A program made the position numbers and the translations under genes. Below the pieces are notes generated by a model, which was not told where the DNA came from, searched no databases, and worked only from the letters and a program-made list of their open reading frames with translations. This document shows, one piece after another, positions 779 to 17,374 of a stretch of 64,000 nt of DNA; positions within the stretch are counted from its first letter, which is position 1, and every line of letters starts with the position of its first letter. Source of the stretch: Sideroxydans sp. (GTDB lineage Bacteria; Pseudomonadota; Gammaproteobacteria; Burkholderiales; Gallionellaceae); assembly GCA_027310665.1 (NCBI GenBank), contig DAIDAJ010000005.1:1-64000 (forward strand), in the 5' to 3' direction.

Positions 779-1231
779 TTATTTTTTGTTCAAGTGGACT
801 TTGAAGAAAGTTTGAATCGAATCAAACTTTTCAGGAGTAGGGAACTGGCCCTTGTGAAACACGAACTGCTGTTGCTTGCCCGCGCCATCCAGACCCGAAA
901 TGCCGAAAGTCTTTCCCGAATAGTCGGGGAAGTAGCGCAAGTTCTTCACCAGATTAACCTGGGTGCCGTTACGCTGGACCAGGCCAAGGTTCTCGTCCGT
1001 TACCTTGAGTGATATCGGCGCAGAGGGTAGAAGCATCAGCCTGGTTTTGAATACGCGGTTAAACCCGGCGATAAAAAAGAAGCAGGTCAGGAAGAAGAAC
1101 AGATAGCCCATGTTGTGGTCTTCGTCGTACCAGAAGCCGGCAGCAATCGAGGCCAGCGCGACCACAGTTGGAATGTACAGCAACAGATCCCAAACCATTC
1201 CTTTGCGATCGGGCACCAAATCGAAATTCAT
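779..1231 (-). CDS. Small membrane protein of unknown function, last gene of the left cytochrome operon
   Basis: About 150 residues. Two hydrophobic helices lie near the N-terminus (LLLYIPTVVALASIAAGFW and a second ending FFFLTCFFFIAGF), followed by a soluble beta-rich tail of about 90 residues that looks PH-like (inference). No cofactor motif is visible. I placed the start at MNFDLVPDRKG because AAGGAG lies just before it, with a short 3-base gap; an ATG 12 bases upstream and longer starts back to about 1324 are possible. It is the last gene of the minus-strand set with the thioredoxin-like lipoprotein and the CcoN-like fragment, so a role in the same respiratory system is plausible but unproven. 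Confidence 0.6.
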   Translation of the reverse strand: MNFDLVPDRKGMVWDLLLYIPTVVALASIAAGFWYDEDHNMGYLFFFLTCFFFIAGFNRVFKTRLMLLPSAPISLKVTDENLGLVQRNGTQVNLVKNLRYFPDYSGKTFGISGLDGAGKQQQFVFHKGQFPTPEKFDSIQTFFKVHLNKK

Positions 1232-1320
1232 CGTCTCCTTCATGAGCTGTCTACCGTATTCTGTTCGTATTGTATTTGCAGCAGCAACCGGACTTGGCCG
1301 ATTGCCTCGCATGACAATTT

Positions 1321-1818
1321 TCAATTGATCGTTTTCAACGCACTGTCCATTTCACCGAGCAGCATCCTGCCGGCTTGTTCAAACTGAACGACGCCATGCT
1401 TGTCGATGATGAAGGTCCAGGGGTCGCCCATGACTCTATAGGCTTTGTACGCTTGGGGATTGGCATATTGGTCTATGTGGATAAATATGATTTTGTCCTG
1501 ATACTGATCCATGACGCCCTTCAGCATTTGAAGCTGCTGGTCGCAATTGGTACAGTGTCCCGGCGTGGCAAATTCCAATACGATAGGCTTGCCCGTCAGC
1601 AACGCCTTATCAACCGAATATTGATACATGCGAGGATCCGGCTGGCGATAAGTCGTGACTTTACTGAAGTTTCCGTCGGCGTCTGCCAGGGTTTTGGTGG
1701 GCAAACTCGGCGCATGCATCCCCACGGCGAAGCCGGCAGACAAGTTCTGTTCGCAGCCACTGACCAGGCCCACGAGAGCCAGTCCAAAGCTTGCCGACAG
1801 GAACTTCAGTTTCTTCAT
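1321..1818 (-). CDS. Thioredoxin-fold lipoprotein, cytochrome-operon associated
   Basis: 165 residues with a lipoprotein signal (lipobox LVSGC, about residues 18-22). A thioredoxin-like domain follows, with a CTNC active-site motif and downstream FIIDKHGVVQFEQAG, the strand pair that carries the usual thioredoxin substrate-binding region. It probably reduces or oxidises thiols in the periplasm, for example apocytochrome CXXCH motifs or a copper-site chaperone; the substrate is inferred from context only. Its ATG overlaps the stop of the CcoN-like gene upstream (ATGA), so the two are translationally coupled. Confidence 0.75.
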   Translation of the reverse strand: MKKLKFLSASFGLALVGLVSGCEQNLSAGFAVGMHAPSLPTKTLADADGNFSKVTTYRQPDPRMYQYSVDKALLTGKPIVLEFATPGHCTNCDQQLQMLKGVMDQYQDKIIFIHIDQYANPQAYKAYRVMGDPWTFIIDKHGVVQFEQAGRMLLGEMDSALKTIN

Positions 1819-2333
1819 GATGGTTTTTTCCAACCGACCTTGGTTGTTTTATACAAGTTGTAGCCCCAGATGATGTTTGCAGTCAGCACCAGCATTCCAA
1901 ACATCCCGACAAAGGCCAGCAGATGACTCACTACTTTTTCGGTGTTTTCGCCTGTACTCAGGCCGCCGATCAGTCCTGCTGAAAGGAAGAAAACCACCAT
2001 GCCGATCAATCCGAAGTTATGCATCCAGAAGTGTATCTTCACCAGACGCACGCTGTATATCTGACGGCGGGAAACCGTAGGGACGACATAGTATAAAGCG
2101 GCGAATATCGCCATTTCAACCCATCCCAACAGGTTGATGTGGCCGTGCGCCAGCGTGATCAGGCGTCCGTGCGCGCTATAGTCCACAAAGTAGCGGAAGG
2201 CCGGGACGCCGCCCATGACCGCTCCCCACGTGAAGCCGATAATGCTGTAAATAATGCACGCGTAGACGAACCATAAAAGGTATTTGTTAAACTCTTCAAG
2301 TTGTGCGGGGCTGTGCTCAATGCTTTGCTTCAT
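1815..2333 (-). CDS. Half-size CcoN/NorB-like heme-copper oxidase subunit I protein
   Basis: 172 residues with four or five transmembrane helices. It matches only part of a cbb3/NorB subunit I: the segment AHGHINLLGWVEMAIFAALY corresponds to helix X, where an HxH pair normally binds both hemes, and IYSVRLVKIHFWMHNFG to the following helices. The Cu(B) histidines and the catalytic tyrosine are absent, so it cannot be an oxidase alone. It might bind a b-type heme or pack against the main CcoN. A paralogue lies at 16591-17112. Its start overlaps the end of the cytochrome gene upstream by 17 bases. Confidence 0.7.
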   Translation of the reverse strand: MKQSIEHSPAQLEEFNKYLLWFVYACIIYSIIGFTWGAVMGGVPAFRYFVDYSAHGRLITLAHGHINLLGWVEMAIFAALYYVVPTVSRRQIYSVRLVKIHFWMHNFGLIGMVVFFLSAGLIGGLSTGENTEKVVSHLLAFVGMFGMLVLTANIIWGYNLYKTTKVGWKKPS

Positions 2334-2898
2334 GTTGCTCCTCTTGTGGTTTTGTTTTCATCCAATCGCGAATATCCTTGTACTGGGCTCGCCAACCGTC
2401 CGGCGCCCACATGTCCAGCATGGCATCGATAAAACTTGAATCGCCCTTGGGCGGTACAAAAGATGAAGAAGAACCTTGGTCGGATTTCAGTTCAGACAGG
2501 AAGACGGCCATGGTGCGCAATTCCGCGTCCGGAAGCTCGGATACATAAGCCGCGTCCTTGGGAGGCGCTCCGTGATCCATGGTTTTGGAACCGTAAACCT
2601 GCTCCGGTTTTTTGAGGAAAGCATAGAAGTAATCGACATCGTGCTTTGAACCCAGGCCGTCGAGGCTGACGCCCATGCTCGTGCCGCTGCCAACTGCCCT
2701 ATGGCAGGTATAGCAGTCTCTTTGCTGGTATATCTGGTAACCGCGCAAACCCTCATCTGAAAAAACAAAGTGAGTCAGAATCGGGAATAATGGTTTGTCA
2801 GAGTTGCGCCTGATGGACTCCAGGACAGTAAAATTTATCACCGTAACAACGACGAGTAGCGCAACTATCCCAAAAAGGATCTTTTCTCCTTTTTTCAT
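2317..2898 (-). CDS. Membrane-anchored monoheme cytochrome c
   Basis: 193 residues: an N-terminal uncleaved anchor after MKKGEK, then a periplasmic cytochrome c domain with one CYTCH heme site at about residue 62 and a possible methionine ligand further on. The acidic/charged C-terminus ends in a histidine-rich tail. It resembles the anchored cytochrome c subunits of cbb3 and NorC enzymes and probably passes electrons to the oxidase encoded divergently. The start MK[KR]GEK is shared with the cytochrome at 8963-9445, so the two are likely paralogues. A CATAAT box about 20 bases before the ATG may be its -10 element. Confidence 0.8.
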   Translation of the reverse strand: MKKGEKILFGIVALLVVVTVINFTVLESIRRNSDKPLFPILTHFVFSDEGLRGYQIYQQRDCYTCHRAVGSGTSMGVSLDGLGSKHDVDYFYAFLKKPEQVYGSKTMDHGAPPKDAAYVSELPDAELRTMAVFLSELKSDQGSSSSFVPPKGDSSFIDAMLDMWAPDGWRAQYKDIRDWMKTKPQEEQHEAKH

Positions 2899-2956
2899 GT
2901 TTCTCCAATCTTGCCACCATTATGAATTCATGCAGTGCGTACTTGCCAGGCAGAAA

Positions 2957-3000
2957 CTCAAAAAACAAAAAGATACTGACCAGTATATTAGATCAGTATC
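2957..3000 (-). terminator. Rho-independent terminator after the diheme cytochrome gene
   Basis: An 8 bp perfect stem (GATACTGA / TCAGTATC) with a 13-base loop lies just beyond the stop at 3059. On the minus strand it is followed by a T-rich run (TTTTTGTTTTTTG). It separates the 4061-3059 transcript from the 2898-779 operon. Further small palindromes (CGCCGGaaaCCGGCG and CTAACG/CGTTAG) sit between it and the stop codon. Confidence 0.75.
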
Positions 3001-3058
3001 CGTTTCACTTCCAGCGCCGGAAACCGGCGCCGGAAGAAGAAATGCCTAACGTCGGGCG

Positions 3059-3847
3059 TTAGCGAACTACTTTAAGCTTTTCCAGAACCGTCTGATTGCC
3101 GATTTCCGTTCCGTCTCCGACCGTGCTGTCAGGAGCTTGTGACAGGAAGGTGGCTACATCATTGATGTCGTCATCGGACAGGTTGTGGGCGACTTTCCGC
3201 ATTTGGCCCATCGGGTCATTGGTGCGTGTCGCGTCACGCCAGTCGGTCAACTGAGCCACCAGATACGTGTACTTCTGCTGGCCGATCTTCGGATACACAG
3301 GATCGGCACCGCGGCCGTTGTAGCCATGGCATGAAACGCACGCAGATATCTTGTCCTTTTCCGCCACGCCAGGACCATTGCGTCCGTAGCGAACAAGGAT
3401 CGAACCTTTGTAAGCCACGCCAATTTTTGTTCCGTCGGCTTGAAGCTGCTTCAGGTCGGAGAGTTCGGAATCTCTTGGGAAACTGTTTTCATAAGCAGCC
3501 AGATCGCGCCTGTCTTGCTCGCTAAGCGCTTTTGCAATGCCATTCATCTGTTGCATGATGTTGTCTGTGCGCTTGTCTTCAGCGAAATTCGTCAGTTGTT
3601 TGACAATATAGACATATCCGATGTTCGCAAGCCTGGGCGCTTTCATCGCATCTTGCCCCATCGCTTTATCGCCATGACAGGTCGCGCAAGCTGGCACGCT
3701 CCCATCGGCCTTGCCATTTTCGAAAATGTTTTTGCCGTTGGTCAAATTCACCGATACGGCGTTTCCTTCAGCCAGGCTAGCGCCTGAAAAAACCAGCATG
3801 GCGGCCGTCCCCAAACACGCCATCGCCAAATTCGATAATTTACGCAT
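3059..3847 (-). CDS. Periplasmic diheme cytochrome c (c4-like)
   Basis: 262 residues with a cleavable signal peptide (ends near GASLAEG). There are two cytochrome c domains with CATCH at about residue 54 and CVSCH near residue 168; each is followed by a candidate methionine ligand region (NIMQQMNGIA and DPMGQMRKVA). The repeat layout is that of cytochrome c4, a soluble electron carrier to terminal oxidases. The ATG at 3847 was chosen because GGGGGAGG precedes it. It is co-transcribed with the 34-residue micro-protein upstream and ends at its own terminator. Confidence 0.87.
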   Translation of the reverse strand: MRKLSNLAMACLGTAAMLVFSGASLAEGNAVSVNLTNGKNIFENGKADGSVPACATCHGDKAMGQDAMKAPRLANIGYVYIVKQLTNFAEDKRTDNIMQQMNGIAKALSEQDRRDLAAYENSFPRDSELSDLKQLQADGTKIGVAYKGSILVRYGRNGPGVAEKDKISACVSCHGYNGRGADPVYPKIGQQKYTYLVAQLTDWRDATRTNDPMGQMRKVAHNLSDDDINDVATFLSQAPDSTVGDGTEIGNQTVLEKLKVVR

Positions 3848-3956
3848 GTGCCTCCCCCTCAAATTATTAATTACCTGCAGCTTACGCAGGACAATGCCAT
3901 TTCATTCCTTATATACATATACGCGCCAAACAGCCGGATTCGGGCTCGGCCGATCT

Positions 3957-4061
3957 TTAAGAATGCTTTTTCATCAGAATAAAAGCCAAGCCGAACAAGA
4001 ACACGAAAATACCTGTGTACATAATAAGAACTTCGCTGGTAGTTACATCTGGCTCAAGCAT
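3957..4061 (-). CDS. 34-residue single-helix membrane micro-protein
   Basis: The ORF encodes 34 residues: an acidic N-terminus (MLEPDVTTSEV), one hydrophobic helix (LIMYTGIFVFLFGLAFILM) and a basic tail (KKHS). A strong ribosome binding site (AAGGAG, 7 bases before the ATG) supports translation. It is the first gene of the minus-strand transcript that includes the c4-like cytochrome. Small one-helix subunits such as CcoQ and CcoM stabilise cbb3 oxidases; this protein is of that general kind, but no sequence identity to either is claimed. Confidence 0.72.
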   Translation of the reverse strand: MLEPDVTTSEVLIMYTGIFVFLFGLAFILMKKHS

Positions 4062-4181
4062 GTGTATCTCCTTGATCAATCATGGTTATAAAAATATTCA
4101 CACTAAAAAATATACCCTTTCAGACGGCACGATATTAGCACCAAGAAATCCACGAAGCAATAGTGTTATTGGCCTCTTCTT

Positions 4182-4232
4182 ACGTTAAATATACGTTAAA
4201 TTAACGTTAAATTACAGTAAATCACGCTAAAT
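4182..4232 (+). repeat. Five helically phased ACGTTAAAT direct repeats (putative operator)
   Basis: ACGTTAAAT occurs exactly at 4182-4190, 4193-4201 and 4204-4212; ACAGTAAAT follows at 4214-4222 and ACGCTAAAT at 4224-4232. The steps are 11, 11, 10 and 10 bases, one DNA turn each, so all five sites face the same side of the helix. They end 23 bases before the -35 candidate at 4256. This is the pattern of a multi-copy activator or repressor site; the binding protein is unknown. Confidence 0.65.
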
Positions 4233-4255
4233 ACGTCGGATCGCAGATAATTCCC

Positions 4256-4285
4256 TTGACAAGTTGAGGGGATGGTAATTAACAT
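4256..4285 (+). promoter_or_regulatory. Candidate sigma70 promoter of the oxidase operon
   Basis: A perfect TTGACA (4256-4261) is followed 18 bases later by TAACAT (4280-4285, four of six consensus bases). The -10 is weak, which fits dependence on an activator bound at the phased repeats just upstream. The first gene starts at 4452. Confidence 0.4.
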
Positions 4286-4451
4286 CTGGAAAACAAAGTT
4301 CGCATTAAAAAATCATTGTTGGCGGAAACATCACAACTGTTTGATTTTTAAGTTTAAATGTAATACAGGTAAGGTTTGTCTGTATCTCGGAATCGTGGAG
4401 TGCCCGGTTTTTTTGGTAAGTTTTGATTTTTGATAATTTAAGGGGGGGGTC

Positions 4452-4727
4452 ATGAGTACAAAGAAAAAATCTCTATCCATTTGGCTGATTCTTGTGAGCG
4501 GGATGCTGACAGGGATGGGTAATGGCAGCGTTTTCGGCGCGACTTTAATGTGCTTGATGGGGCGCGGGGGGTTTAGTAACTGGGGCGGATTTGCGTGGAC
4601 GGCATATGACCCATCGACCTTCACCGGGTTTATCGATCAGGCGATGATCGTTTTCGGCATTGCATTTTGCGGAATTCTGTATGTTGGCTTGAATCGCCAC
4701 TACAAGTTGGAGAGCGGCGCTGCCTAG
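4452..4727 (+). CDS. Two-helix membrane protein of unknown function, first gene of the oxidase operon
   Basis: 91 residues with two predicted helices (IWLILVSGMLTGMGNGSVFG and MIVFGIAFCGILYVGLN) joined by a glycine/tryptophan-rich loop (GRGGFSNWGGFAW). A G-rich ribosome binding site directly precedes the ATG. It is not recognised. It lies first in the transcript, followed by the micro-protein gene and ccoN, so it is probably a small subunit or assembly factor of the oxidase. Confidence 0.7.
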   Translation: MSTKKKSLSIWLILVSGMLTGMGNGSVFGATLMCLMGRGGFSNWGGFAWTAYDPSTFTGFIDQAMIVFGIAFCGILYVGLNRHYKLESGAA

Positions 4728-4784
4728 TTTGAGGCGCGGTCTCTGTAATATCTGTTGAATTGTTAATTATTTGAGGGGTGTGCT

Positions 4785-4892
4785 ATGGCTTTAATTGCGG
4801 GTTCATTGGGCGTGCTATTAGCGTTTTCGAGCATGTTGCTCTCGTGGTACATACTTGTTCCACATGATGACGACAGTGGCGATAATCACTAA
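4785..4892 (+). CDS. 35-residue single-helix membrane micro-protein
   Basis: 35 residues: one hydrophobic helix from the N-terminus (ALIAGSLGVLLAFSSMLLSW) and an acidic, histidine-ending tail (HDDDSGDNH). The ribosome binding site GAGGGG stands 7 bases before the ATG. It lies 57 bases after the two-helix protein and 24 bases before ccoN. Size and position fit a CcoQ-type small subunit, but it lacks a recognisable CcoQ sequence. The acidic tail could bind metal (speculation). Confidence 0.68.
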   Translation: MALIAGSLGVLLAFSSMLLSWYILVPHDDDSGDNH

Positions 4893-4916
4893 TTTTTCGA
4901 GTTGAGGGGGAGTAAC

Positions 4917-6323
4917 ATGCTTAAGTATCTATTTGCAAAAAACGAAGACATACCGGCCGGTTCGGCTGCTGTGTTCTTCGGATTTTCGGCGATTATCTGG
5001 TTCGTGATCGGTACCGGGTTGGGTTCATTCAATGCGGCGAAACTTGCATTCCCGGACTTTGTGACCGGGAATATCTATTTCGCCTTTGGCCATATGCGCC
5101 AAGTGCACGTGATGGCCGTTATTTTTGGCTGGATCTCGATGGCGTTTGCCATGGCCATGATGTACATCACGCCGGCCTTGGGTAACACCAAGTTGTGGTC
5201 AGAAAAGCTGGGTTTGTGGAACTGCTTGCTGTGGAACGTGGGCTTGACGCTCGGTCTGACGGTTTTGTGGGCAGGCATCACTTCCGGTCGTGAATACTCC
5301 GACTTCCCCTGGCCAGTGGATTTGTACCTGGCTTTCTTTGTTTTTATTCCGCTGGCAGTCAATGTCTGGATGACGATTCTGAATCGTCGCACTCAAGGTA
5401 TTTACACCACGAACTGGTTCTTCGCCGCGGCCGTATTTATGGTCATCATCGTGTTCCTGGTCGGTAACTCTCCCGAGTTCTTCCACCTGACCGGTCTGAC
5501 CGAGGCTTATCTGACCTGGTGGTTCGCGCACAACGTGCTGGGGCTCTGGATCACTCCGGTGGCTGCCGCGATCGCGTATTACACCATTCCTAAAGTGACG
5601 GGAAATCCGCTGTACTCGCACCGTATCGGCCACTTGCACTTCTGGTCTGTTGTGGTGTTCTACTCCACCCCCGCTGCGCACCACCTGATGTCGGCGCCTT
5701 TGCCGGAGTGGCTGAAGTCCTTCGCTTCGGTCGAGGGTGTGCTGATCCTGGTGCCCGCGATTGCGTTCGTATCGAACATCATGCTGACCATGAAGGGCAA
5801 GTGGCATATGTTCGTCGAGAATATCGAGGTTCGTTTCACCATCACCGGCTGTCTGATGGCTATTCCGCTGAACATGCAAGGCGGTTTCCAGCAAACTCGC
5901 GCGATCAACTGGTATATCCACGGAACAGGCTGGATCGTTGCTCACGCGCACCTGGCGTTGCTCGGATTCTCAACCTTCCTGGAAGCTGCTGCCGTTTATC
6001 TTGGCTTGCAGACCATCATGAAGCGCAAATTGTATTCCCTGACGCTGGCCAATATGCACTTCTGGCTCTTGCTGATCGGTTTCTCAATTTACTGGGTTTC
6101 CATGACGATCGCCGGCCTGATTCAGGGCGCGGGCAAGATCTACGAGGTTCCGTATATCGACGTGGTTATTGCTGAGCACCCATACATGATCGCCCGTTGG
6201 ATTGGCGGTACCCTGGTCTTCACTGGCAACGTTCTGTGGCTGTACAACATGTGGATGACGGCACGCAAAGGAACCGAAGTACCGGAAGGCCGTATGCCGC
6301 ATGAACTGGGATACGAGCGTTAA
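4917..6323 (+). CDS. ccoN: cbb3-type cytochrome c oxidase subunit I-like protein (atypical CcoN)
   Basis: 468 residues, 12 or so helices. It is the catalytic subunit of a C-type heme-copper oxidase, reducing O2 at a heme b3/Cu(B) site. Visible ligands are H59 or H64 (HMRQVH) for low-spin heme, H205 (WWFAHN) and H255/H256 (AAHH) for Cu(B), and H343/H345 (HAHL) for the hemes. Tyr249 lies six residues before the HH pair, where cbb3 enzymes carry the cross-linked catalytic tyrosine. The glutamate-rich motifs of NorB are missing. The start was set at MLKYLF because GGGGGAG precedes it. Sequence outside the motifs diverges from standard CcoN, hence atypical. Confidence 0.85.
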   Translation: MLKYLFAKNEDIPAGSAAVFFGFSAIIWFVIGTGLGSFNAAKLAFPDFVTGNIYFAFGHMRQVHVMAVIFGWISMAFAMAMMYITPALGNTKLWSEKLGLWNCLLWNVGLTLGLTVLWAGITSGREYSDFPWPVDLYLAFFVFIPLAVNVWMTILNRRTQGIYTTNWFFAAAVFMVIIVFLVGNSPEFFHLTGLTEAYLTWWFAHNVLGLWITPVAAAIAYYTIPKVTGNPLYSHRIGHLHFWSVVVFYSTPAAHHLMSAPLPEWLKSFASVEGVLILVPAIAFVSNIMLTMKGKWHMFVENIEVRFTITGCLMAIPLNMQGGFQQTRAINWYIHGTGWIVAHAHLALLGFSTFLEAAAVYLGLQTIMKRKLYSLTLANMHFWLLLIGFSIYWVSMTIAGLIQGAGKIYEVPYIDVVIAEHPYMIARWIGGTLVFTGNVLWLYNMWMTARKGTEVPEGRMPHELGYER

Positions 6324-6356
6324 TATTGGCCAGTGTAAAATTTAGGGAGAGTAAGC

Positions 6357-7313
6357 ATGGCTGGATTTAGAGAATATAAGGTTGGATCGAGGCTATTCGC
6401 GTTAGCGTTTGGTGGCTCGATGACCATTACGTTGTTTTTTCCGAGCATCAATATCGCCTCGGTGTCTTCAACTGATGTGGCACTTTCAAAGCAACTGGCA
6501 GTGGGCCATGAAACTGGCTTCAACCTGGAGGATCCGTTTCTGCAGGGCAAAAACAAGCCTGTTGTTGTTGCACTGAAGGCTGACCCGAAAACCGGTCAGC
6601 CGCTCGCGGATGCGATCTCGGTTTTCGTGTACCAGCCGGGAACGACGTTCCCTGCCGGTATATTGCATCCCCGCATCTTGGGTCAGGGCATCGAGCAGTT
6701 GAGCGTAGAGCAGGGTCACATCACTGACGCGCAAAAAGCCTATGGTGCGGTCTTTACCGTAAGCAAGGGGACGTATCAGGGTAAAGAGTTCAGCTTCATC
6801 GACAATCTGACCGCAACCAAGGGCTGGATGCCGGCCGACGTGATGCACGCGGCCAAGGATGAGGACATTTCTCATGCGGGCGCTGGCAAGACGTATTTTG
6901 TGCGCGAAGGTTGCTGGTGGTGCCACACGCTGCTTCCAGAGCAGACGCAGGACTGGCAGGTATTCGGTGCGCCCCCGATGCTGGGTGACTTCAACGGTGA
7001 GTCGCCAACCGCATTCGGCTCAGACCGGAAGGCTCCCGACCTGATGCACGTCGGTTCCCGTAACTCGTCCAAAGAGTGGCTGATGATGCACTTCTTTAAT
7101 CCGCGCTTGGTGCAACCGCATTCAATCATGCCGCGCTTCGACTATCTGTGGGGAGAAAAGGACGCATCCGGCAACAAGATCGATTACGACAAATGGCGTG
7201 CCGAATACGACGATTATCGTGAGGGCAAGCGTGTATCTCCTCCGGAGGTTCCGGCTTATGCCAGCGATTCCGAAATCCGCAGTCTGATTGACTTCATGCT
7301 GAGTCTGAAGTAA
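6357..7313 (+). CDS. ccoO: CcoO-like membrane-anchored monoheme cytochrome c
   Basis: 318 residues: an N-terminal anchor (FALAFGGSMTITLFFPSI), a periplasmic insert of about 130 residues, then a CcoO-type heme domain with CWWCH at about residue 186, a GSDRKAPDL region and the SIMPRFDYLW methionine-ligand segment near residue 257. The order EGCWWCH, then PDL.HVG.R, then PRLVQPHSIMP is the CcoO pattern. It receives electrons from soluble cytochrome c and passes them to CcoN. The insert before the heme site is not part of standard CcoO. It lies 33 bases after ccoN. Confidence 0.83.
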   Translation: MAGFREYKVGSRLFALAFGGSMTITLFFPSINIASVSSTDVALSKQLAVGHETGFNLEDPFLQGKNKPVVVALKADPKTGQPLADAISVFVYQPGTTFPAGILHPRILGQGIEQLSVEQGHITDAQKAYGAVFTVSKGTYQGKEFSFIDNLTATKGWMPADVMHAAKDEDISHAGAGKTYFVREGCWWCHTLLPEQTQDWQVFGAPPMLGDFNGESPTAFGSDRKAPDLMHVGSRNSSKEWLMMHFFNPRLVQPHSIMPRFDYLWGEKDASGNKIDYDKWRAEYDDYREGKRVSPPEVPAYASDSEIRSLIDFMLSLK

Positions 7314-7329
7314 CGAGGAGGATATAAAA

Positions 7330-7947
7330 ATGTCTTGGAATTTTAATAAGCCGCTGGTCACGATGTGCGATGCGGCAACAAATGAAGCCGACAAAGCGCT
7401 TTGGGAAAAGGAAAATCTTGGTGGAATAACGGAAGATAACCACCGCATGCCCATGCCCGTGGTGCTGCTGGTTGTCCTGACTGTTCTCACTGCTTTTGCG
7501 GTTACCTTCCCGCTGTGGGGGCAGCGCCCAAATGCAGCCATCTACGAGGGCTACGTGAAAGCGATGAATACTCCTGAAGTGCAGGCGATTCAGGATGATG
7601 AAGCTGCGATGAAAAAGATCGTTCAGATGAATCTGGGGGGCAAATATGACGAGTTGTTGGAGCGTCATCCCCTGGGCATGAATGATCTGCGCATCATCAA
7701 GCCGCAAATCGAAGCATTGATGGCCAAAGGTGTCGATCTGCAGGAATACAACGTGGTCGGTGATCGTGTGGTTCTGGCAAACTTCGAGGGTAACGTCAAG
7801 GCAGACGGAACGCCGGAAAGAAAGCAGCCTTGGTGGGACAAGGGCTATACCATCGACATTTTTTACGTGATGTATTTCTTTACGATGGTGATTGTTCTGA
7901 TCAAGAGATTGCCGCCGTCAACCTGGCAGCCTAAGCACACGCATTGA
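7330..7947 (+). CDS. Heme-free two-helix protein with FixP/CcoP N-terminal-like segment
   Basis: 205 residues. A charged N-terminus (EKENLGGITEDNHRMPMP) leads into a helix ending FPLWGQRPN, followed by a soluble domain of about 100 residues and a second helix near the C-terminus (IFYVMYFFTMVIVLI). No CXXCH is present. The layout of acidic loop, proline, helix resembles the start of CcoP/FixP (inference). The motif FP[LF]WGxRP is shared with the 142-residue protein at 15742-16170. It is in the oxidase operon, 16 bases after ccoO, where ccoQ or ccoP would normally stand. Confidence 0.72.
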   Translation: MSWNFNKPLVTMCDAATNEADKALWEKENLGGITEDNHRMPMPVVLLVVLTVLTAFAVTFPLWGQRPNAAIYEGYVKAMNTPEVQAIQDDEAAMKKIVQMNLGGKYDELLERHPLGMNDLRIIKPQIEALMAKGVDLQEYNVVGDRVVLANFEGNVKADGTPERKQPWWDKGYTIDIFYVMYFFTMVIVLIKRLPPSTWQPKHTH

Positions 7948-7950
7948 TTG

Positions 7951-7989
7951 ACCGGATAGGATGGGCATGAAACTTCAGGCCCATCCGGT
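7951..7989 (+). other. Intercistronic RNA hairpin
   Basis: ACCGG...ATGGGC pairs with GCCCAT...CCGGT across a 12-base loop, with a 5-base bulge on one side. It has no U-tract, so it is more likely an mRNA-stabilising or processing stem between the 205-residue protein and the next micro-protein gene than a terminator. Confidence 0.45.
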
Positions 7990-8300: not shown

Positions 8301-8304
8301 ATGG

Positions 8305-10946: not shown

Positions 10947-10966
10947 TTATGTATTGGAGGAATATC

Positions 10967-11215
10967 ATGAATTCCATATGGATGAGAACGGTCCTGATCC
11001 TCATGGGTCTGGTTGTAGCACCGATGGCGCGGGCGGCGGTCGATAGTTACCGGTTCGCACACGTCACCATCTCGACCCCTTGGTACATTTTCATCTTCCT
11101 GTTGATGGGGATTTTTGCGCCGTTCGTTTTGATGGCTGTACTTGCGTGGCGCAATGCAATGAGAAAAGCAACTCCTGACAATGCAGAAGAAGGCCGGAAG
11201 CCTTCGCATCAATAA
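10967..11215 (+). CDS. Small secreted/one-helix membrane protein
   Basis: 82 residues: a signal-like N-terminal helix ending near MARAA, a short periplasmic stretch (VDSYRFAHVTISTPWY), a second helix (IFIFLLMGIFAPFVLMAVLA) and a basic/acidic cytoplasmic tail. GGAGGA precedes the ATG. Not recognised; it sits in the accessory operon between the SUMF1 protein and another small membrane protein. Confidence 0.65.
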   Translation: MNSIWMRTVLILMGLVVAPMARAAVDSYRFAHVTISTPWYIFIFLLMGIFAPFVLMAVLAWRNAMRKATPDNAEEGRKPSHQ

Positions 11216-11236
11216 AACATTTCCGCTGAAAATCAT

Positions 11237-11614
11237 ATGACACATTTCGGACTATCGATTTCTCGAATCCTCCCGGTCTTGCTTGCATTCCTGTTGCCGG
11301 TTCTGTGCGCTCTGCCTGCGCATGCAGAAGACGCGCCCCATGAAGGTGAAAGTGCCCAGATCTTGCAGGCATTCAATAAACAGCACCGGGAAACAGAGCA
11401 TGCAAAGTCAATCACCGATAAGGACAAGCAACGAGTCATGTTCCTGTTGGGGGTTTCGCTTTTAACCCTCGTTCTGATCACGGGCGGATTGGGAATCGCC
11501 ATGGGGCTGTTCGGAAAGTCGGTATTCGTGGCACATATGATATTTGCCGGGCTCAGCATGACATTGGCGGTGGTTCACGCGGTTGTCGCTCTCGTATGGT
11601 TCTATCCATTTTAG
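11237..11614 (+). CDS. Small membrane protein with signal peptide, unknown function
   Basis: 125 residues: cleavable signal (ends about LPAHAED), a charged amphipathic periplasmic segment (QILQAFNKQHRETEHAK), and two helices (MFLLGVSLLTLVLITGGLG and MIFAGLSMTLAVVHAVVALV). No clear ribosome binding site was found, so it may depend on coupling with the preceding gene. It is the last gene before an intergenic hairpin. Not recognised. Confidence 0.62.
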   Translation: MTHFGLSISRILPVLLAFLLPVLCALPAHAEDAPHEGESAQILQAFNKQHRETEHAKSITDKDKQRVMFLLGVSLLTLVLITGGLGIAMGLFGKSVFVAHMIFAGLSMTLAVVHAVVALVWFYPF

Positions 11615-11620
11615 GGTTCA

Positions 11621-11645
11621 AAGCAACAGGATCCGTTTGTTGCTT
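11621..11645 (+). terminator. Intergenic hairpin, possible weak terminator
   Basis: A perfect 8 bp stem AAGCAACA / TGTTGCTT with a 9-base loop, 7 bases after the stop at 11614. No T-run follows, so termination may be partial. Confidence 0.4.
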
Positions 11646-11738
11646 CCCTCGATAGCGTGCATTTACATGTCCACAGTCCTCAAGGCATTTCGCCTTTGCC
11701 ACCCCCACCTAAGCCGACGTCATTTCGAGTAGTTTCCT

Positions 11739-14378
11739 ATGCCGCTCAACCAACCTGCAAACGTCAATTCCGGGAATAAGCACAAGATATGGTGGCTGGT
11801 GGCAATCCTGTATTGCTTTTCGGGCACGACAAGCCTTGCCTATGAAGTGCTGTGGTCGCGCATGCTGTCCATGCAGTTCGGGGTCAGCATTTTCGGCGTG
11901 GTCATCACCGTTGCTGCCTTCATGTTTGGTCTTGGCGCAGGCAGCATAGCGGGAATCAAATGGGCCAGACAAAGCAAGGAGCCGATCGCGGTATTTGCGG
12001 CACTTGAGATAGGAATCGCGATCTATGCGCTCCTCCTTCCGACACTACTTCAGTACTCAAACGGCTGGATGGAAGGAGTTTCGACTCAACTGACTTTGCT
12101 GCAGTGGTATCTGTTGCAAGGTGCGGGAGCATTCTGCTTGCTGCTTGTTCCAGCATTCGGCATGGGAGTAGGTTTTGCGCTGGTTATCAAGGTAATCGAG
12201 CAAACGCCAATCTCTCTCGGAAAGATCTACGGTCTGAATACGCTGGGCGGGGTTGCGGGCGCGCTATTCCCGTTATGGAGTCTGCCTGCGATCGGATGGG
12301 CTGCGTCAGTGAGATTCATCGCGGTACTAGGTTTGGCGGTCGGAATCGCAGCATTGGTTGTCTCGCGCGCAATAAATCAAGCCAGAACGTTGCAAGGTGA
12401 AAGCAAGAAACACAACGAACGCCCCCCGATGTCGGCGCTGTTGATATACGCTGGCATCGGGGCTGGAAGCATCATGCTGGAGATCGGATGGGTGCGGCTA
12501 TACGGCATGATCATGCTGAGAACGGAATATGTGCTGGGCCTGATTCTGGCCGTATTTCTCCTGGGGATCGCGCTCGGAAGCATGTTCCTGCCGCAACTGA
12601 AGAAATATGGTTTGTCGACCTGGATGCCGTTTGTCGTCGGCGGAGGCGTGTTGTTGGGCTTGTTCCTATTGCCTGCAACTTCTGCATGGATAGAGCAAAG
12701 CGACTTCAAATCATTTTTTTGGGCGACAACCTACCAGGCATTGATTCTGGGAATATTTACGCTCCCGATCACATTGGCCTTGGGCGCCTGGCTACCGCTG
12801 TTGGCAAGCCGTTACGATCACACCGAGTCCGGCGGAGTCTGGTTGTACGGGGCTAACTGCCTGGGTGGCAGCGCAGGCGCGGTAGTAGCCTGTTTGATAT
12901 GTATTCCTTTGCTGGGCAGCGCAGGGATGGTTGCCTTATGCGCTGTTGCGATCACGGCATTTGGCCTGATCTGGGTCAATACACGCTGGGCCTGGCTGGG
13001 GTTGGCCGCGGTACTTGCGGCAGCATGGCCATTGCGCATCATGCCGCCAGTAGATGCATTGCTGCCCAAGATCGAAGCGGATAGCCGCAATCTTTACCTG
13101 TATGAAGATGCGATCTCGCTGACCCATGTCATCCGCCAGCCGGACGGACAGCGCGTATTGCTGAGCGATTTGCAGCGTATGGATGCATCTACCGACCCGA
13201 GTGCAGTAGAGATACAGAAAGATCAGGCCCGACTTGCATTGCTGCTGCATCCGGCACCGAAAAGCGTATTGTTCCTTGGGTTGGGAACCGGGATATCAGT
13301 GGCGGGATCAAAACCGTTCCCAAGTCTGATTCGAAGTGCAGTGGAATTATCACAGGGCTCGATCAACTCGGCCAAGTATCTCTTCTCGCCGGTAAATGAC
13401 AACATCCTGGATCAGGTGCAGATTCAACGCGACGATGCAAGGCACTTCCTGAGCAGCACGCAACGCCACTACGATGTCATCATCGGTGACTTGTTTCACC
13501 CGGACATAGCAGGAATGGGATCGTTGCTGTCAGTCCAGCAGTTCGAACGAGCAAAAGACCGTCTGAACAAAGATGGGGTCTTTGTCCAATGGCTGGCGCT
13601 CAACCAGTTCGAGGTTGAATCGCTCAGGGTGGTCCTGCGGAGTTTTCAGCGCGTGTATCCCAACGCCCAGTTATTCATGGACGGCATGCATCTGGCATTG
13701 GTTGGTCCAAGAAACGAATTTTCTGGCGCAAATTCGATTTTGCAGAATCTGGGCCGTATGGACACTGCAGGACAAAGCCAGGCAACAGGCGGCGAAGGCG
13801 CGTGGACCTGGATAGGGCGCTATTGGGGGCCGATCGCAGAAACGAACGGAACAGTCCAGGACGAGTGGGAGCCGTATATCGAATATAAATTGCCGCGGGC
13901 TCGGTATGACGGCAACGTGAATCTGGCAAATCTGATGTCGTGGCTGTTGCGACGCCATCCGGAGCCTGAGGCCGCCATGAAAATATTGGCAATCGGTGCC
14001 AATGACAGAAGCAAATTCGGGCGCGATTATGTGGCGACCGAGCTTACCGCGCGTGCGTGGGTATCATCTATTCAGGGAGATGCGGAAAAAGCGGGAAATT
14101 TGATTTGGCTGGCCTATCAGGCGAACCCTCAGGATCGCTGGATAGCCAATTCGCTGGCTGATAGCATGTGGCAGTCCCTTGCACAGGCAAAGGAGCGCGG
14201 TCTGAGCGAACGTGAGGCCCTGCAGCGCATCATTAAGGTGTATCCAGGCCATGTTGGCGCCTTGCGCGCCCTGTGGCATCTGGAATCAACTGAGGGTAAA
14301 ACACAAGTGGCCGAGCAATACCGTTCACGCTTGCTTGCCAGTTCACCTCTGGACAGTGAAGCGAAACTAATTCAATGA
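11739..14378 (+). CDS. Fused MFS-like transporter / spermidine synthase-like protein
   Basis: 879 residues. Residues 1 to about 430 form roughly 12 membrane helices of the type found in fused MFS/spermidine synthase proteins (LAYEVLWSRML, GLGAGSIAG, YGLNTLGGVAGAL). A soluble aminopropyl- or methyltransferase-like domain follows with the SAM-type loop FLGLGTGISV near residue 512, then an IIGDLFHPD strand and VFVQWLALNQF. The last 200 residues look helical and TPR-like. The substrate is unknown. It stands alone by intergenic space on both sides but inside the oxidase island. Association with respiratory loci is unexpected. Confidence 0.8.
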   Translation: MPLNQPANVNSGNKHKIWWLVAILYCFSGTTSLAYEVLWSRMLSMQFGVSIFGVVITVAAFMFGLGAGSIAGIKWARQSKEPIAVFAALEIGIAIYALLLPTLLQYSNGWMEGVSTQLTLLQWYLLQGAGAFCLLLVPAFGMGVGFALVIKVIEQTPISLGKIYGLNTLGGVAGALFPLWSLPAIGWAASVRFIAVLGLAVGIAALVVSRAINQARTLQGESKKHNERPPMSALLIYAGIGAGSIMLEIGWVRLYGMIMLRTEYVLGLILAVFLLGIALGSMFLPQLKKYGLSTWMPFVVGGGVLLGLFLLPATSAWIEQSDFKSFFWATTYQALILGIFTLPITLALGAWLPLLASRYDHTESGGVWLYGANCLGGSAGAVVACLICIPLLGSAGMVALCAVAITAFGLIWVNTRWAWLGLAAVLAAAWPLRIMPPVDALLPKIEADSRNLYLYEDAISLTHVIRQPDGQRVLLSDLQRMDASTDPSAVEIQKDQARLALLLHPAPKSVLFLGLGTGISVAGSKPFPSLIRSAVELSQGSINSAKYLFSPVNDNILDQVQIQRDDARHFLSSTQRHYDVIIGDLFHPDIAGMGSLLSVQQFERAKDRLNKDGVFVQWLALNQFEVESLRVVLRSFQRVYPNAQLFMDGMHLALVGPRNEFSGANSILQNLGRMDTAGQSQATGGEGAWTWIGRYWGPIAETNGTVQDEWEPYIEYKLPRARYDGNVNLANLMSWLLRRHPEPEAAMKILAIGANDRSKFGRDYVATELTARAWVSSIQGDAEKAGNLIWLAYQANPQDRWIANSLADSMWQSLAQAKERGLSEREALQRIIKVYPGHVGALRALWHLESTEGKTQVAEQYRSRLLASSPLDSEAKLIQ

Positions 14379-14412
14379 GTTTGTATATTCAGTGGTTAAT
14401 TGAGAGGTATAC

Positions 14413-15729
14413 ATGTCCTCCAGTATGAACAAAACGCTTTCCAGCATTCCAGTCAAAGTGATCGGCACCGGCCTGAAAAAAGGAGCGGGCAATTACCGAT
14501 GGAAGCGGCGTGCAATTCAGATAATCATTCTGGCCTTGCTGGTGATCATTCCCGTATCCGGACTATTCCGGATTGACCCCGAAAATGGCGCGCTGGTTGT
14601 GCTGGGTTGGCAAATCTGGTTCGCCGACTTTTTCCTGATATCGGGATTATGGATAATGATAGCCAGCGCTTTAGTCGCGCTGTATTCGATTGCTGGAACC
14701 GTGTTTTGTGGATGGGCCTGCCCGCAAAATACCGTTGCAGAATGGGCAAACCACATGACGCATAAGCTGCTCGGCAAGCGTGCAGAAGTCAGCTTGACCG
14801 GTGAAGCACCGAAAGTGGCGGCGGCAAAAAACAAGGCGCTGAACTGGACACTGCTTGCGCTCTCGTTTATAGGCGCAGCGATGTTTTTTGCATTGTTGCC
14901 GTTGCTGTATTTTTACCCGCCGGATGTCGTCTGGTCCTTTATGACGTTCAGAACAGACACAAGATTGGCGGGCTCCCTGTATTGGATATATACGGTATGG
15001 GTGATGATGATCCTTCTCGACATCGCGGTTCTCAGGCATTTCTGGTGTCGTTTCGCCTGCGTCTACAAGGTCTGGCAACATTCGTTCAAGACCAAGGAGA
15101 CATTGCATGTGCTCTATGATGCGAGCCGGGCTGACGAGTGCGAAAAGTGCAATTACTGCGTAACGACCTGTTTCATCGAACTGGATCCGCGCAAGACGGA
15201 AATTTATGACAGTTGCATCAACTGCGGGGATTGCATAGACGCCTGCAATAATCTGCATGCAAAGAAGGGCGGTATTGGCCTGCTACGGTTCGAATTCGGG
15301 CAGCGAACGGCGGGCAAGGTTCAGAAGCTACGAGACAACACGATGTTGTTGCTATCGAGGTTCCGTTGGACTACACCCTTCGCAGTTCTTGGTATTGTAT
15401 TGTTCAGCTGGGGCGTATGGTCATACCAGCCATATCACATTGCCGTAGGATATTTGCAGACAGCGCATAATCAATCTGCACGCGATTACCGTATCGAGAT
15501 ATCCAGCAAGCGTTACCGTCCGTCTGAACTTAGCGTTTCCGTCGAGGGCTTGCCGGAAAATGCTTTTACCCTGAGCCGGCCAACAGTAAGCATGGAAACA
15601 GTCGGTAGAACTTCAATCTTTCTTGCCGTGTCACCGAAATTGGAGCGAGGCCTTCATCCCTTCTCGGTGGTGGTTCACTCCAGCGACGGCTGGACTGGAC
15701 GTTTTAATCTTCAGCATTTTGTTGAATAG
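14413..15729 (+). CDS. ccoG: CcoG/FixG-type cytochrome c oxidase accessory protein
   Basis: 438 residues with about five helices. It has the FCGWACPQNTVAEW motif near residue 97, a two-[4Fe-4S] ferredoxin domain with CEKCNYCVTTC (about 243) and CINCGDCIDAC (about 268), a last helix at about residue 325, and a C-terminal periplasmic Ig-like domain. CcoG is a cupric reductase that supplies Cu(I) to Cu(B) of cbb3 oxidases. The first cluster has an unusual spacing to its fourth cysteine (CVTTC). Downstream, FixP_N-like and FixH-like genes follow at 12 and 28 bases. Confidence 0.88.
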   Translation: MSSSMNKTLSSIPVKVIGTGLKKGAGNYRWKRRAIQIIILALLVIIPVSGLFRIDPENGALVVLGWQIWFADFFLISGLWIMIASALVALYSIAGTVFCGWACPQNTVAEWANHMTHKLLGKRAEVSLTGEAPKVAAAKNKALNWTLLALSFIGAAMFFALLPLLYFYPPDVVWSFMTFRTDTRLAGSLYWIYTVWVMMILLDIAVLRHFWCRFACVYKVWQHSFKTKETLHVLYDASRADECEKCNYCVTTCFIELDPRKTEIYDSCINCGDCIDACNNLHAKKGGIGLLRFEFGQRTAGKVQKLRDNTMLLLSRFRWTTPFAVLGIVLFSWGVWSYQPYHIAVGYLQTAHNQSARDYRIEISSKRYRPSELSVSVEGLPENAFTLSRPTVSMETVGRTSIFLAVSPKLERGLHPFSVVVHSSDGWTGRFNLQHFVE

Positions 15730-15741
15730 GAGTATCGAGTC

Positions 15742-16170
15742 ATGGAAAAAGCGGATAAGAAACTGGAATTTTCTGATGAAGAAACCAAGTGGGGAGAGCC
15801 ACGCAAGGATAATTTTGGCTATACATCTGATCAAGAGCGCTTGGAAAAGCGCGGCCTGGAAGATTGGGAATTGGTGGAAAAAATTCCGGATTCCCAGCAA
15901 AAAGTGCCCTATTGGTTCATGGCAGTAGTAGTGATTGTATTGCTCGTCGGGGTTGGACTCAGCTTTCCGTTCTGGGGGCTGCGGCCAGGCGTGGTGGTCA
16001 ATTGGGTTGATTGGGTAAAAGATCCGGGATTTCTGGGTTCGCTTGTATATATCGCTGTGGCTGCTGCGTTTGTTCATTACATGGTGAATATGTATGGTTC
16101 AAAAGTTGGGGGAAGGCTTGATTCCGATATTGAAAAACGGCGCGAAGAAAAGGATGAAAAGGAGAAATAA
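15742..16170 (+). CDS. Heme-free protein with CcoP N-terminal-like segment
   Basis: 142 residues: a highly charged N-terminus of about 50 residues (DWELVEKIPD), PYWFMAVVVIVLLVGVG leading to FPFWGLRPG, a second helix near residue 100, and a charged tail (KRREEKDEKEK). The segment of acidic residues, proline, WF and helix resembles the FixP_N part of CcoP, but no heme site follows. It shares FP[LF]WGxRP with the protein at 7330-7947. It lies between ccoG and the FixH-like gene, where ccoP-ccoG-ccoH order is usual. Confidence 0.7.
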   Translation: MEKADKKLEFSDEETKWGEPRKDNFGYTSDQERLEKRGLEDWELVEKIPDSQQKVPYWFMAVVVIVLLVGVGLSFPFWGLRPGVVVNWVDWVKDPGFLGSLVYIAVAAAFVHYMVNMYGSKVGGRLDSDIEKRREEKDEKEK

Positions 16171-16198
16171 GTTCCTATAGCCAAAATCCAAATAGACA

Positions 16199-16588
16199 AT
16201 GAAAAAATTCCTGTCCATCCTGCTATGTTTTCTAACGGCGAGCCTTGTTGCGTGCAGCGACAATAGCAGACACCTGTCGATTCCTCCGCAGCACTGGAAA
16301 GAGGCAGATATTCAAATAGAAACACATCCAGATCCCCCGCTGGCGGGAATGTCTGAAATAGTGGTTATTGTGACTGGACCGCACGGAAGACCGGTCCAGG
16401 ACATGACGGTTTCTCTGCGGGGGAACGACTCCGTGCAATGGGTACAGGCGATACAGGATGGAAATATTGGAGTGTATCGTCGTGCTATAGATATTGGAGA
16501 GGGGGAGTCAGTAGCGCTTCAGGTTCAGTTGCAACAACGAGGGGATAAAAAGGTACTCCTGTTCCCGCTCCGGCTGGCAAAGAGCTAA
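16199..16588 (+). CDS. FixH/YtkA-like lipoprotein
   Basis: 129 residues: a lipoprotein signal (lipobox LVACS at residues 16-20) and one beta-sandwich domain resembling FixH/YtkA (PPLAGMSEIVVIVTGP, then DMTVSLRG). FixH (CcoH) helps to assemble cbb3 oxidase, but that protein is anchored by a helix, whereas this one would be lipid-anchored in the periplasm. No ribosome binding site is evident. The stop is 2 bases from the stop of the convergent half-CcoN gene. Confidence 0.6.
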   Translation: MKKFLSILLCFLTASLVACSDNSRHLSIPPQHWKEADIQIETHPDPPLAGMSEIVVIVTGPHGRPVQDMTVSLRGNDSVQWVQAIQDGNIGVYRRAIDIGEGESVALQVQLQQRGDKKVLLFPLRLAKS

Positions 16589-16590
16589 CT

Positions 16591-17112
16591 CTAAGAAGAT
16601 GTAGCGTCGCCTTTGGATTGGGACGTAATTGTCAATATCACGTTCGCCAAGTAGGTACAAAAACCGACAGCCATTGTTGTCCCGGAAAGAGCCATGACAG
16701 GTCCATAAAAGCGGTGTACAGCAGCCATGTCGCTCGGCGAGCTTATTAGGAGTCCCTCCCAGATACCAAATACCATCTGTATAACGTAAAAACTATAGAC
16801 GCCTATGCTTACCCACCAGAAGGTATGCTGTACCAGTTTTATTGAATATATATTTTTTCCGGTAAAAACAGGCAGCAAATAATACGTTACGCACATGGCA
16901 AGCAGGACTACGCCGCCAACAAGATTCATATGCGCATGAGCCAAGGGGTCAATCATATGGCCTGGGCCGCCGTAAGGGCTGCCGATCGAATCCAGCCATG
17001 CTCGAACAGGCGGCATGACCTGAAACATTCCGTGAATAGTACCAATGAAAAACGACAGGGCAGAAAGCAGGAGGAATTTTAAAAGTTGCCGATGCAGAAT
17101 GTTTGTGGTCAT
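16591..17112 (-). CDS. Half-size CcoN/NorB-like heme-copper oxidase subunit I protein
   Basis: 173 residues, four or five helices. The motif AHAHMNLVGGVVLLAMCVTY matches the HxH helix of subunit I, and NIYSIKLVQHTFWWVSIG the following helix. The Cu(B) ligands are absent. It is clearly the same kind of protein as 1815-2333 (shared HxHxNL, then IYS.[KR]LV..[HI].FW), one at each end of the island. Possible roles are heme b binding, electron entry or assembly. It is transcribed toward ccoG from its own upstream region (17113-17185). Confidence 0.7.
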   Translation of the reverse strand: MTTNILHRQLLKFLLLSALSFFIGTIHGMFQVMPPVRAWLDSIGSPYGGPGHMIDPLAHAHMNLVGGVVLLAMCVTYYLLPVFTGKNIYSIKLVQHTFWWVSIGVYSFYVIQMVFGIWEGLLISSPSDMAAVHRFYGPVMALSGTTMAVGFCTYLANVILTITSQSKGDATSS

Positions 17113-17185
17113 CTCAGGATGTAATGTACATATGCGAGTCCTCGGACGACTTTGATCTGGGCGAATAGGTGTCTGGACGTGGGTG

Positions 17186-17237
17186 AAATAAACAAAACAT
17201 CAGAAAATATCTGGTAACTCCCCAGAATTTTCTGATG
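17186..17237 (-). terminator. Rho-independent terminator of the 35-residue protein gene
   Basis: A long stem (CATCAGAAAAT / ATTTTCTGATG, 11 bp perfect, then TCTGG / CCAGA with one bulge) is followed on the minus strand by TTTTGTTTATTT. It lies 30 bases after the stop at 17267 and insulates the half-CcoN gene, which therefore needs its own promoter in 17113-17185. Confidence 0.85.
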
Positions 17238-17266
17238 CAGTATTGGCCAATTTTGCTAAATATTCT

Positions 17267-17374
17267 TTACTTCTTTTTTTCAACGATGCGATCAATTCCC
17301 ATGCCGCTAAGATGAATAGCAACAACAACACCCAAGGCAAAAATTGCAACTGGAACTAGAAGTTCAACTGGCAT
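17267..17374 (-). CDS. 35-residue single-helix membrane micro-protein
   Basis: 35 residues: one helix (LLVPVAIFALGVVVAIHL) and a basic C-terminus (GIDRIVEKKK). A strong ribosome binding site (GGGGGAG, 6 bases before the ATG) and its own terminator make it a convincing monocistronic gene. The IDRI near the C-terminus matches the micro-protein at 8019-8123. Probably a small oxidase-associated subunit; function inferred only from location and size. Confidence 0.7.
   Translation of the reverse strand: MPVELLVPVAIFALGVVVAIHLSGMGIDRIVEKKK

Follow-up and report, generated by a model that had tools for sequence, protein, structure and literature searches.

Sideroxydans ES-1 carries two clusters for cbb3-type cytochrome c oxidases, which fall into proximal and distal subtrees and are both highly expressed, and a Cyc1 homolog sits within a cbb3 cluster, according to the available passages of PMC8788666. 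As described in the passages available from three papers (PMC8788666, PMC7029218, PMC10734462), the two ES-1 clusters differ in subunit composition, most Gallionellaceae have one cbb3 form or the other, Zetaproteobacteria have both, and the names proximal and distal are attributed to Ducluzeau et al. 2008. The oxidases are treated as cbb3 enzymes in the excerpts at hand of PMC7029218, PMC10734462, PMC3770913, PMC3179512, PMC4643136, PMC5513912, and PMC8250860. Here we analyze a cbb3-type oxidase island of ~19.3 kb in a Sideroxydans sp. genome (GCA_027310665.1; 3.19 Mb, 127 contigs), contained in the first 64,000 nucleotides of contig DAIDAJ010000005.1, forward strand (hereafter the window).

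The island shares with the canonical ccoNOQP-ccoGHIS cluster (the cbb3 oxidase of PDB 3mk7) homologs of CcoN and CcoO, the cofactor ligands, the active-site tyrosine, and a CcoG relative. By contrast, it has no dihaem CcoP, CcoI, or FixH, its CcoO contains an additional stretch, and ~20 further genes accompany the catalytic subunits. Judging from gene content and its distribution across genomes, we consider it likely, with a probability of roughly 0.77, that the enzyme encoded here is a C-family haem-copper cytochrome c oxidase that reduces O2 and belongs to an oxidase clade present in Proteobacteria that oxidize iron, nitrite, and probably sulfur. By elimination from the available passages on ES-1, the clade is probably one of the published proximal and distal forms. 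As far as those passages go, the lineage is probably not new and already in print as a cbb3 form, albeit little described. The parts of these texts at hand do not state which label fits the clade and make no mention of half-COX1, FGE-like, spermidine-synthase-like, or haem-less CcoP-like genes; titles, abstracts, and available passages likewise yielded nothing on the half-COX1 pair or the clade gene set described below, and those of PMC6501319, PMC11841059, PMC8361435, PMC10654088, and PMC10734482 had nothing to add.

The catalytic core and its clade

The predicted catalytic subunit (CcoN) matches COX1 with 259.8 bits and TIGR00780 with an E-value of 3.6e-68, far under the equivalog cut-off of the latter, and the next gene product (CcoO) matches FixO with 61.5 bits over residues 176-268, in agreement with a preliminary description made from the sequence alone. 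Searches with CcoN in 100 relatives, 369 genomes of the class, and 398 genomes of the phylum identified 88 carriers, the host genome included, with at least 61% identity to the window CcoN. In a tree of 71 rows, 49 clade CcoNs lie on one side of a branch with 98/90 support, 16 canonical CcoNs group together (100/100), and five CcoS-fused CcoNs form a third group; the software issued a warning about some long branches meeting. Clade and canonical CcoNs share ~30-33% identity, and one genome, G028, which we take to be that of ES-1, encodes one of each. The separate branch rejects the possibility of an ordinary CcoN and, together with the co-conserved neighbors described below, upholds the distinct lineage of C-type oxidase that had been proposed. 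The CcoS-CcoN fusion clade (L142-L146) also has a C-family CcoN, at 31-35% identity, but it is separate in the tree, and g1, g2, g7, g10-g18, g20, and g21 of the island (Table 1) were not found around its CcoN. A CcoS-like stretch is fused to the CcoN N-terminus in L142, and the L143-L146 proteins are similarly long (517-556 amino acids (aa)).

CcoN and CcoO keep the cofactor ligands of C-family (cbb3) oxidases. The six histidine ligands of haem b, haem b3, and CuB are invariant in all 49 clade CcoNs, as are Tyr249, at the C-family cross-link position, and Ser234 and His241, which we take to be K-path residues. Because these residues are invariant, O2 reduction by the clade CcoN is chemically possible. 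CcoO has one CXXCH motif in 46/46 homologs and is thus a monohaem protein. All 46 are 311-324 aa long and contain ~110 extra residues before the haem domain (residues ~35-170), for which sequence searches found no convincing relative; the CcoO of the divergent relative L128 lacks this stretch and has 173 aa. Comparison of CcoN and the half-COX1 proteins with solved structures matched only cbb3 and other haem-copper chains.

Co-inheritance and the oxidase complement of carriers

Stretches of up to 20 kb around CcoN (L094-L141) were collected from 48 of the 87 other carriers, picked by hand with long contigs favored. These loci represent two classes, and about 20 genes are co-conserved in them, with identities mostly of 40-60%; some of the missing homologs fall in loci that are truncated by the end of a contig or of the collected stretch. 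Most of the small membrane proteins that had been noted are conserved in tens of other loci. Gene order is largely kept. Two gene groups, module C (g19, g20, and g21, with g22 on the opposite strand) and module D (g5-g4-g3-g2-g1), are moved or inverted in some loci, yet retained. Module D has the opposite orientation in most loci; in L141 it is positioned downstream of CcoN, and in G035 (L260) and G095 (L261) it is located away from the CcoN locus. In L121, L122, L125, and L141, module C is inverted, and in L098 it is split. None of g1, g2, g7, g10-g18, g20, and g21 was found in eight control loci around other COX1 genes. This co-conservation rejects a chance cluster.

Named relatives gave a similar picture. 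In the best 80 of 220 relatives, with flanks of at most 10 kb, g7 was found in 80 loci, CcoO in 79, g10 in 77, g13 in 74, g15 in 68, g18 in 60, g19 in 57, g3 in 50, g21 in 27, and g22 in 5. These 80, mostly metagenome-assembled, comprise Sideroxydans, Gallionella, Ferrovum (one Ferrovum myxofaciens), Candidatus Nitrotoga, Chromatiaceae, and other Gammaproteobacteria, the closest by CcoN being Sideroxydans sp. isolate clean1836 (99%). The same-phylum group f240/f260/f273 probably represents Zetaproteobacteria, as suggested by the available passages of PMC7029218. A reduced cluster in L128 (G134:C157) consists of a half-COX1, a 72-aa protein, a 61%-identical CcoN, a short CcoO, a 114-aa haem-less FixP_N protein, monohaem cytochromes, and a thioredoxin-like protein, adjoined by cytochrome-like open reading frames (ORFs).

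A census of oxidase and maturation genes covered 49 of the 88 carriers, namely the genomes of the 48 loci and the host genome. The CcoI N-domain, a strong FixP_N match, and FixH over cut-off are found together in 13 genomes and in none of the others, and all 13 have a canonical operon; canonical CcoP, CcoI (with N-domain), and FixH are all missing in the other 36. The host genome is among those with a complete canonical ccoN-O-Q-P-G-H-I-S operon (G000:C81, L147), and cytochrome bd lies on the same contig; in G023 (C1:349408-350699), canonical CcoN matches appear in two overlapping pieces. By match totals, 32/49 genomes encode no full-length COX1 besides the clade CcoN, and in 23 of these cytochrome bd was not found either, Candidatus Nitrotoga fabula being among them. 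In these 23 genomes, no O2-reducing enzyme other than the clade oxidase is apparent. Four genomes without CcoI carry another haem-copper oxidase. For Ca. N. fabula, the passages available from PMC6050957 name one haem-copper oxidase, of 'cbb3 type'. Since this organism is an aerobic nitrite oxidizer in which no other oxidase was found, it must use the clade oxidase, which is the strongest, albeit indirect, argument for function.

Half-COX1 proteins, haem carriers, and accessory genes

The preliminary description had spoken of split subunits, and this proved truer than claimed. Two short proteins, g3 and g22, match only the end of the COX1 model (g3, 58.7 bits over 304-407; g22, 39.9 bits over 308-411). 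They correspond to the C-terminal third of CcoN, align to ~305-461 of solved CcoN chains, and constitute two separate families. An H-x-H motif is present in 68/68 distinct g3 sequences and HAH in 34/34 distinct g22 sequences, each set picked for at least 45% identity. Each half-COX1 has the one H-x-H helix through which CcoN ligates both haem b and haem b3.

The half-COX1 proteins track the clade CcoN. A search with 16 of them showed a score gap between half-COX1 matches (at least 105.7 bits, including fragments in two genomes) and the next matches (at most 85.1 bits). The latter lie nearly all in full-length COX1 frames, and the few in short frames are close to contig ends. Among 369 genomes of the class, 32 have both CcoN and half-COX1, none CcoN only, 4 half-COX1 only, and 333 neither. 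Of 398 genomes of the phylum, 41 have both, one (G703, 68% complete) CcoN only, 8 half-COX1 only, and 348 neither. Half-COX1 therefore occurs in 32/32 and 41/42 carriers against 4/337 and 8/356 non-carriers (host genome counted in both samples; Fisher p below 1e-41, kinship ignored). Two half-COX1 proteins, fragments counted, are present in 31/32 carriers of the class and 36/42 of the phylum, and the genome of L128 (G134) has one; g22 is on other contigs in several genomes. The 12 genomes with half-COX1 and without the clade CcoN are 57-98% complete. Among the stretches of five of them, module D is present in three (L256-L258) and g22 alone in L255. The fifth (L254:2269-6749, G467:C100) has a divergent half-COX1 that adjoins g26-like and g18-like genes and in which His-Ile-Phe replaces H-x-H, with Phe at the second His; this neighborhood is perhaps a related system of its own.

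How the half-COX1 proteins act allows several answers. That they are maturation factors for haem b or CuB insertion, taking the place of CcoI and FixH, rather than subunits, is a serious possibility, although we would put it somewhat below even. They lie in operons with the thioredoxin-like g2 and the CcoG-like g19, 36/49 carriers have neither CcoI (with N-domain) nor FixH, and in L128 one half-COX1 immediately precedes the 72-aa protein and CcoN. Against this role, their conservation is as wide as that of the oxidase itself and extends to the 13 genomes that have CcoI and FixH. A bolder proposal, that g3 and g22 pair into a heterodimeric bis-haem b cytochrome within an oxidase complex of 15-20 subunits, seems to us unlikely.

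The island also appears to distribute its haems differently. As had been noted, neither a dihaem FixP_N CcoP nor a P-type ATPase was found among the island ORFs scanned. Directly after CcoO comes g10, which is without CXXCH in 47/47 homologs. In 26/49 genomes, FixP_N matches at the g10 place with an E-value of at most 0.01, and 9 of these genomes exceed the cut-off whereas 17 stay under it; the g10 of the window itself had no Pfam match, whereas the 114-aa protein of L128 (L128P), at the same place, scored over cut-off (26.2 bits). In profile comparisons (hhalign), a second haem-less protein, g20, is related to both g10 and L128P (95-96%; to g10, 95.4%, E-value 1.9e-8 over 50 columns). The haems are instead on separate proteins, and the expected four cytochromes c were indeed found. 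These are CcoO, g13 (160 aa) and g4 (193 aa), with one CXXCH each (44/44 and 36/36 homologs), and g5 (267 aa) with two (28/30 homologs), which we take to be c4-like by haem count. The g13 and g4 proteins are paralogs (hhalign, 99.4%, E-value 1.8e-21). An electron entry path re-engineered relative to canonical cbb3, as previously suggested, fits this anatomy of separate cytochromes and haem-less FixP_N-like proteins without a dihaem CcoP, although the path itself is only predicted.

Other assignments fared unevenly. The g19 protein is CcoG-like, as described (TIGR02745, E-value 1.4e-34, under its equivalog cut-off). A CcoS-like g12 survives only as a weak likeness, with FixS at 19.8 bits against a cut-off of 23.1 and nothing in profile comparison, so that a firm CcoS is rejected. 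A FixH-like role for g21 (16199-16588) is likewise rejected because it had no FixH match and FixH over cut-off is limited to the 13 genomes with a canonical operon. The g15 protein matches the family of FGE, EgtB, and PvdO but scores far under the listed NCBIfam equivalog cut-offs, and its conserved C-terminal RGGSWK.DPF region contains no Cys; it therefore lacks the Cys pair that, in true FGE, presumably binds copper at this position. Conserved motifs are also present in g2 (ATPGHCT.CD.QLQ) and g7 (TGMGNGSVF). Searches of g10 and g14 against solved structures gave no match.

The island genes span 779..19255 in four groups. The main operon is ordered g7-CcoN-CcoO-g10-g11-g12-g13-g14-g15-g16-g17-g18, module D diverges from it, module C is the third group, and g25-g26 the fourth. 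At the right edge of the extent given earlier (779..17374), the ORF at 17200-17349 has homologs in 1/48 loci, whereas conserved genes lie further right (17604-19255). Two candidate genes, g23 and g24, were rejected as conserved, with homologs in 1/48 (a 24-aa scrap) and 0/48 loci. The longest g1 ORF starts at 1324, with conservation only from ~1243, and that of g5 starts at 3862.

Table 1. Features of the oxidase island, with the number of the 48 loci that contain a homolog (identity at least 30%, 38% for g4, and 45% for half-COX1; coverage over half).
Feature	Position	Strand	Description	Loci
g1	779..1243	-	membrane protein, two predicted helices; no Pfam match	37/48
g2	1321..1833	-	thioredoxin-like, N-terminal helix; AhpC-TSA and Thioredoxin over cut-off	38/48
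g3, half-COX1 a	1815..2333	-	172 aa, four predicted helices, H-x-H	37/48
g4	2317..2898	-	membrane-anchored monohaem cytochrome c; Cytochrom_C 34.2 bits	36/48
g5	3059..3847	-	dihaem cytochrome c, predicted N-terminal helix; Cytochrom_C 65.3 bits	30/48
g6	3957..4079	-	40-aa single-helix protein	9/48
g7	4452..4727	+	91-aa membrane protein, opens oxidase operon	46/48 (80/80 named loci)
CcoN-type catalytic subunit	4917..6323	+	COX1 match; ligands, Tyr249; tree placement	
CcoO-type monohaem subunit	6357..7313	+	FixO match	46/48
g10	7330..7947	+	haem-less FixP_N-like (CcoP-like) anchor	47/48
g11	8348..8665	+	two-helix membrane protein	43/48
g12	8688..8966	+	small, one helix, weakly CcoS-like; longest ORF starts at 8649	44/48
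g13	8963..9445	+	membrane-anchored monohaem cytochrome c, 160 aa, g4 paralog	44/48
g14	9442..9888	+	membrane protein	42/48
g15	9888..10946	+	membrane-anchored FGE-fold protein; FGE-sulfatase 191.8 bits	45/48
g16	10949..11215	+	two-helix membrane protein	43/48
g17	11237..11614	+	small membrane protein	45/48
g18	11739..14378	+	membrane protein with spermidine-synthase-like domain; NF037959 MFS_SpdSyn over cut-off	43/48
g19	14413..15729	+	CcoG-like ferredoxin membrane protein; TIGR02745	38/48
g20	15742..16170	+	second haem-less protein, g10-related	37/48
g21	16199..16588	+	putative lipoprotein	37/48
g22, half-COX1 b	16591..17112	-	173 aa, HAH motif	30/48
g25	17604..17804	-	66-aa two-helix protein, frequently beside g1	38/48
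g26	17801..19255	-	polytopic membrane protein; no Pfam match over cut-off	20/48, some cut by fetched flank

Elsewhere in the window, a 100-aa lysine/alanine/proline-rich repeat protein (AAKKPAAKK) at 29000-29302 resembles histone H1-like proteins. A long cluster at 45212-62209 looks, from its ORFs alone, like a type IV pilus or MSHA-like system and contains a 1479-aa ORF (52267-56706). Rfam and tRNA scans of the 64-kb window gave no match.

Alternative readings and meaning for the carriers

The reading of the island as an O2-reducing oxidase has several points against it. Literature searches found no biochemistry or structure of the clade. Its most divergent member, L128 (61%), genuinely lacks many island genes, and the genome of L128 has a canonical cbb3 oxidase and CcoI. 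G467, 98% complete, has a half-COX1, and searches found no clade CcoN in it. The p-values for co-occurrence of half-COX1 and CcoN ignore relatedness, many carriers are incomplete assemblies, and the count of genomes with the clade CcoN as only full-length COX1 comes from totals of two or three among the PF00115 matches listed. FixP_N scores at the g10 place are low, with none in 23/49 genomes, and hhalign of g10, g20, and L128P with one canonical CcoP gave nothing; the likeness to CcoP therefore comes from the FixP_N matches, and a relation of g10-type proteins to CcoP is likely, not certain.

Further points concern the maturation genes. Two of the 36 genomes have sub-cut-off FixH matches inside frames of 478-492 aa. 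The CcoI N-domain model PF12156 was over cut-off in 0/14 control genomes, including Caulobacter vibrioides, which has a CcoI according to the available passages of PMC12617631. The domain test by itself is therefore weak, and it was repeated with the CcoI protein of the host genome. Matches reaching the N-terminus were found in the same 13 genomes, 12 of them at 766 bits or more and that of G134, cut by a contig end, at 471 bits; the other matches listed start at residue 81 or later, with at most 510 bits. Other P1B-type ATPases, presumably CopA-type copper ATPases, occur in 34/36 genomes without CcoI and may serve copper loading in its place.

Reduction of NO (nitric oxide) or another gas, not O2, by this haem-copper enzyme is very unlikely. 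The chemistry is predicted from sequence, some haem-copper oxidase subfamilies have turned into NO reductases, and NorB, the cytochrome c-dependent NO reductase, belongs to the same superfamily (4xyd is a weak match of CcoN). Yet the cross-link Tyr and the Ser and His assigned to the K-path are invariant in 49/49 clade CcoNs, and in 23/49 genomes, that of Ca. N. fabula among them, neither a second full-length COX1 nor cytochrome bd was found. By contrast, the third COX1 of the host genome (C32), which looks like an NO reductase, has Thr at the Tyr249 position. The presence of this Tyr rejects a NorB-type enzyme for the clade CcoN.

That the enzyme is an ordinary cbb3 oxidase whose unusual neighbors are unrelated passengers is hardly credible; the complete canonical operon of the host genome, and module D or g22 lying elsewhere in some genomes, agree with it, whereas order and content preserved over two classes at mostly 40-60% identity and the separate CcoN clade speak against it, and the genome-wide tracking of CcoN by half-COX1 largely refutes it. 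The preliminary description had held that its proposal would be undermined by a CcoN inside ordinary clades, a complete canonical operon elsewhere in the genome, and small genes that are not co-conserved. The operon does exist (on contig C81), while the CcoN falls outside the ordinary clades and the small genes are co-conserved.

Taken together, the co-inherited half-COX1 proteins, the 36/49 carriers without CcoP, CcoI, and FixH, and the 23 in which no other oxidase was found indicate that the island very probably encodes a functional cytochrome c oxidase that is matured by a route of its own. Its function is well supported by genome logic, and its wiring we infer as follows. Electrons would pass from periplasmic cytochromes, such as the dihaem g5, to the membrane-anchored monohaem proteins g13 and g4, perhaps docked on g10 and g20. 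From g13 and g4 they would reach the CcoO haem, then haem b, and finally the b3-CuB site. Loading of CuB would proceed without a typical CcoI; candidates for assisting it are g19, g2, and, possibly, an ATPase of the CopA type. The half-COX1 pair, equipped with the same H-x-H helix as CcoN, would act as a partner in the structure or the biogenesis of the oxidase.

If the clade oxidase is indeed the only O2-reducing enzyme of the 23 genomes, a cbb3 oxidase can be built without the dihaem CcoP, typical CcoI, and FixH, all of which are treated as standard, and genome surveys keyed on ccoP or ccoI would misjudge the organisms that carry it. Were the half-COX1 proteins to form a bis-haem b pair, they would constitute a new membrane electron-transfer unit derived from a third of a haem-copper oxidase, through which lithotrophs could split their electron flow among c-cytochromes, O2, and the quinone pool. 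In either case, they offer a specific handle on the building or wiring of the complex. The oxidase lineage itself is probably known, if little described, and its gene set is unusual and tightly co-inherited.

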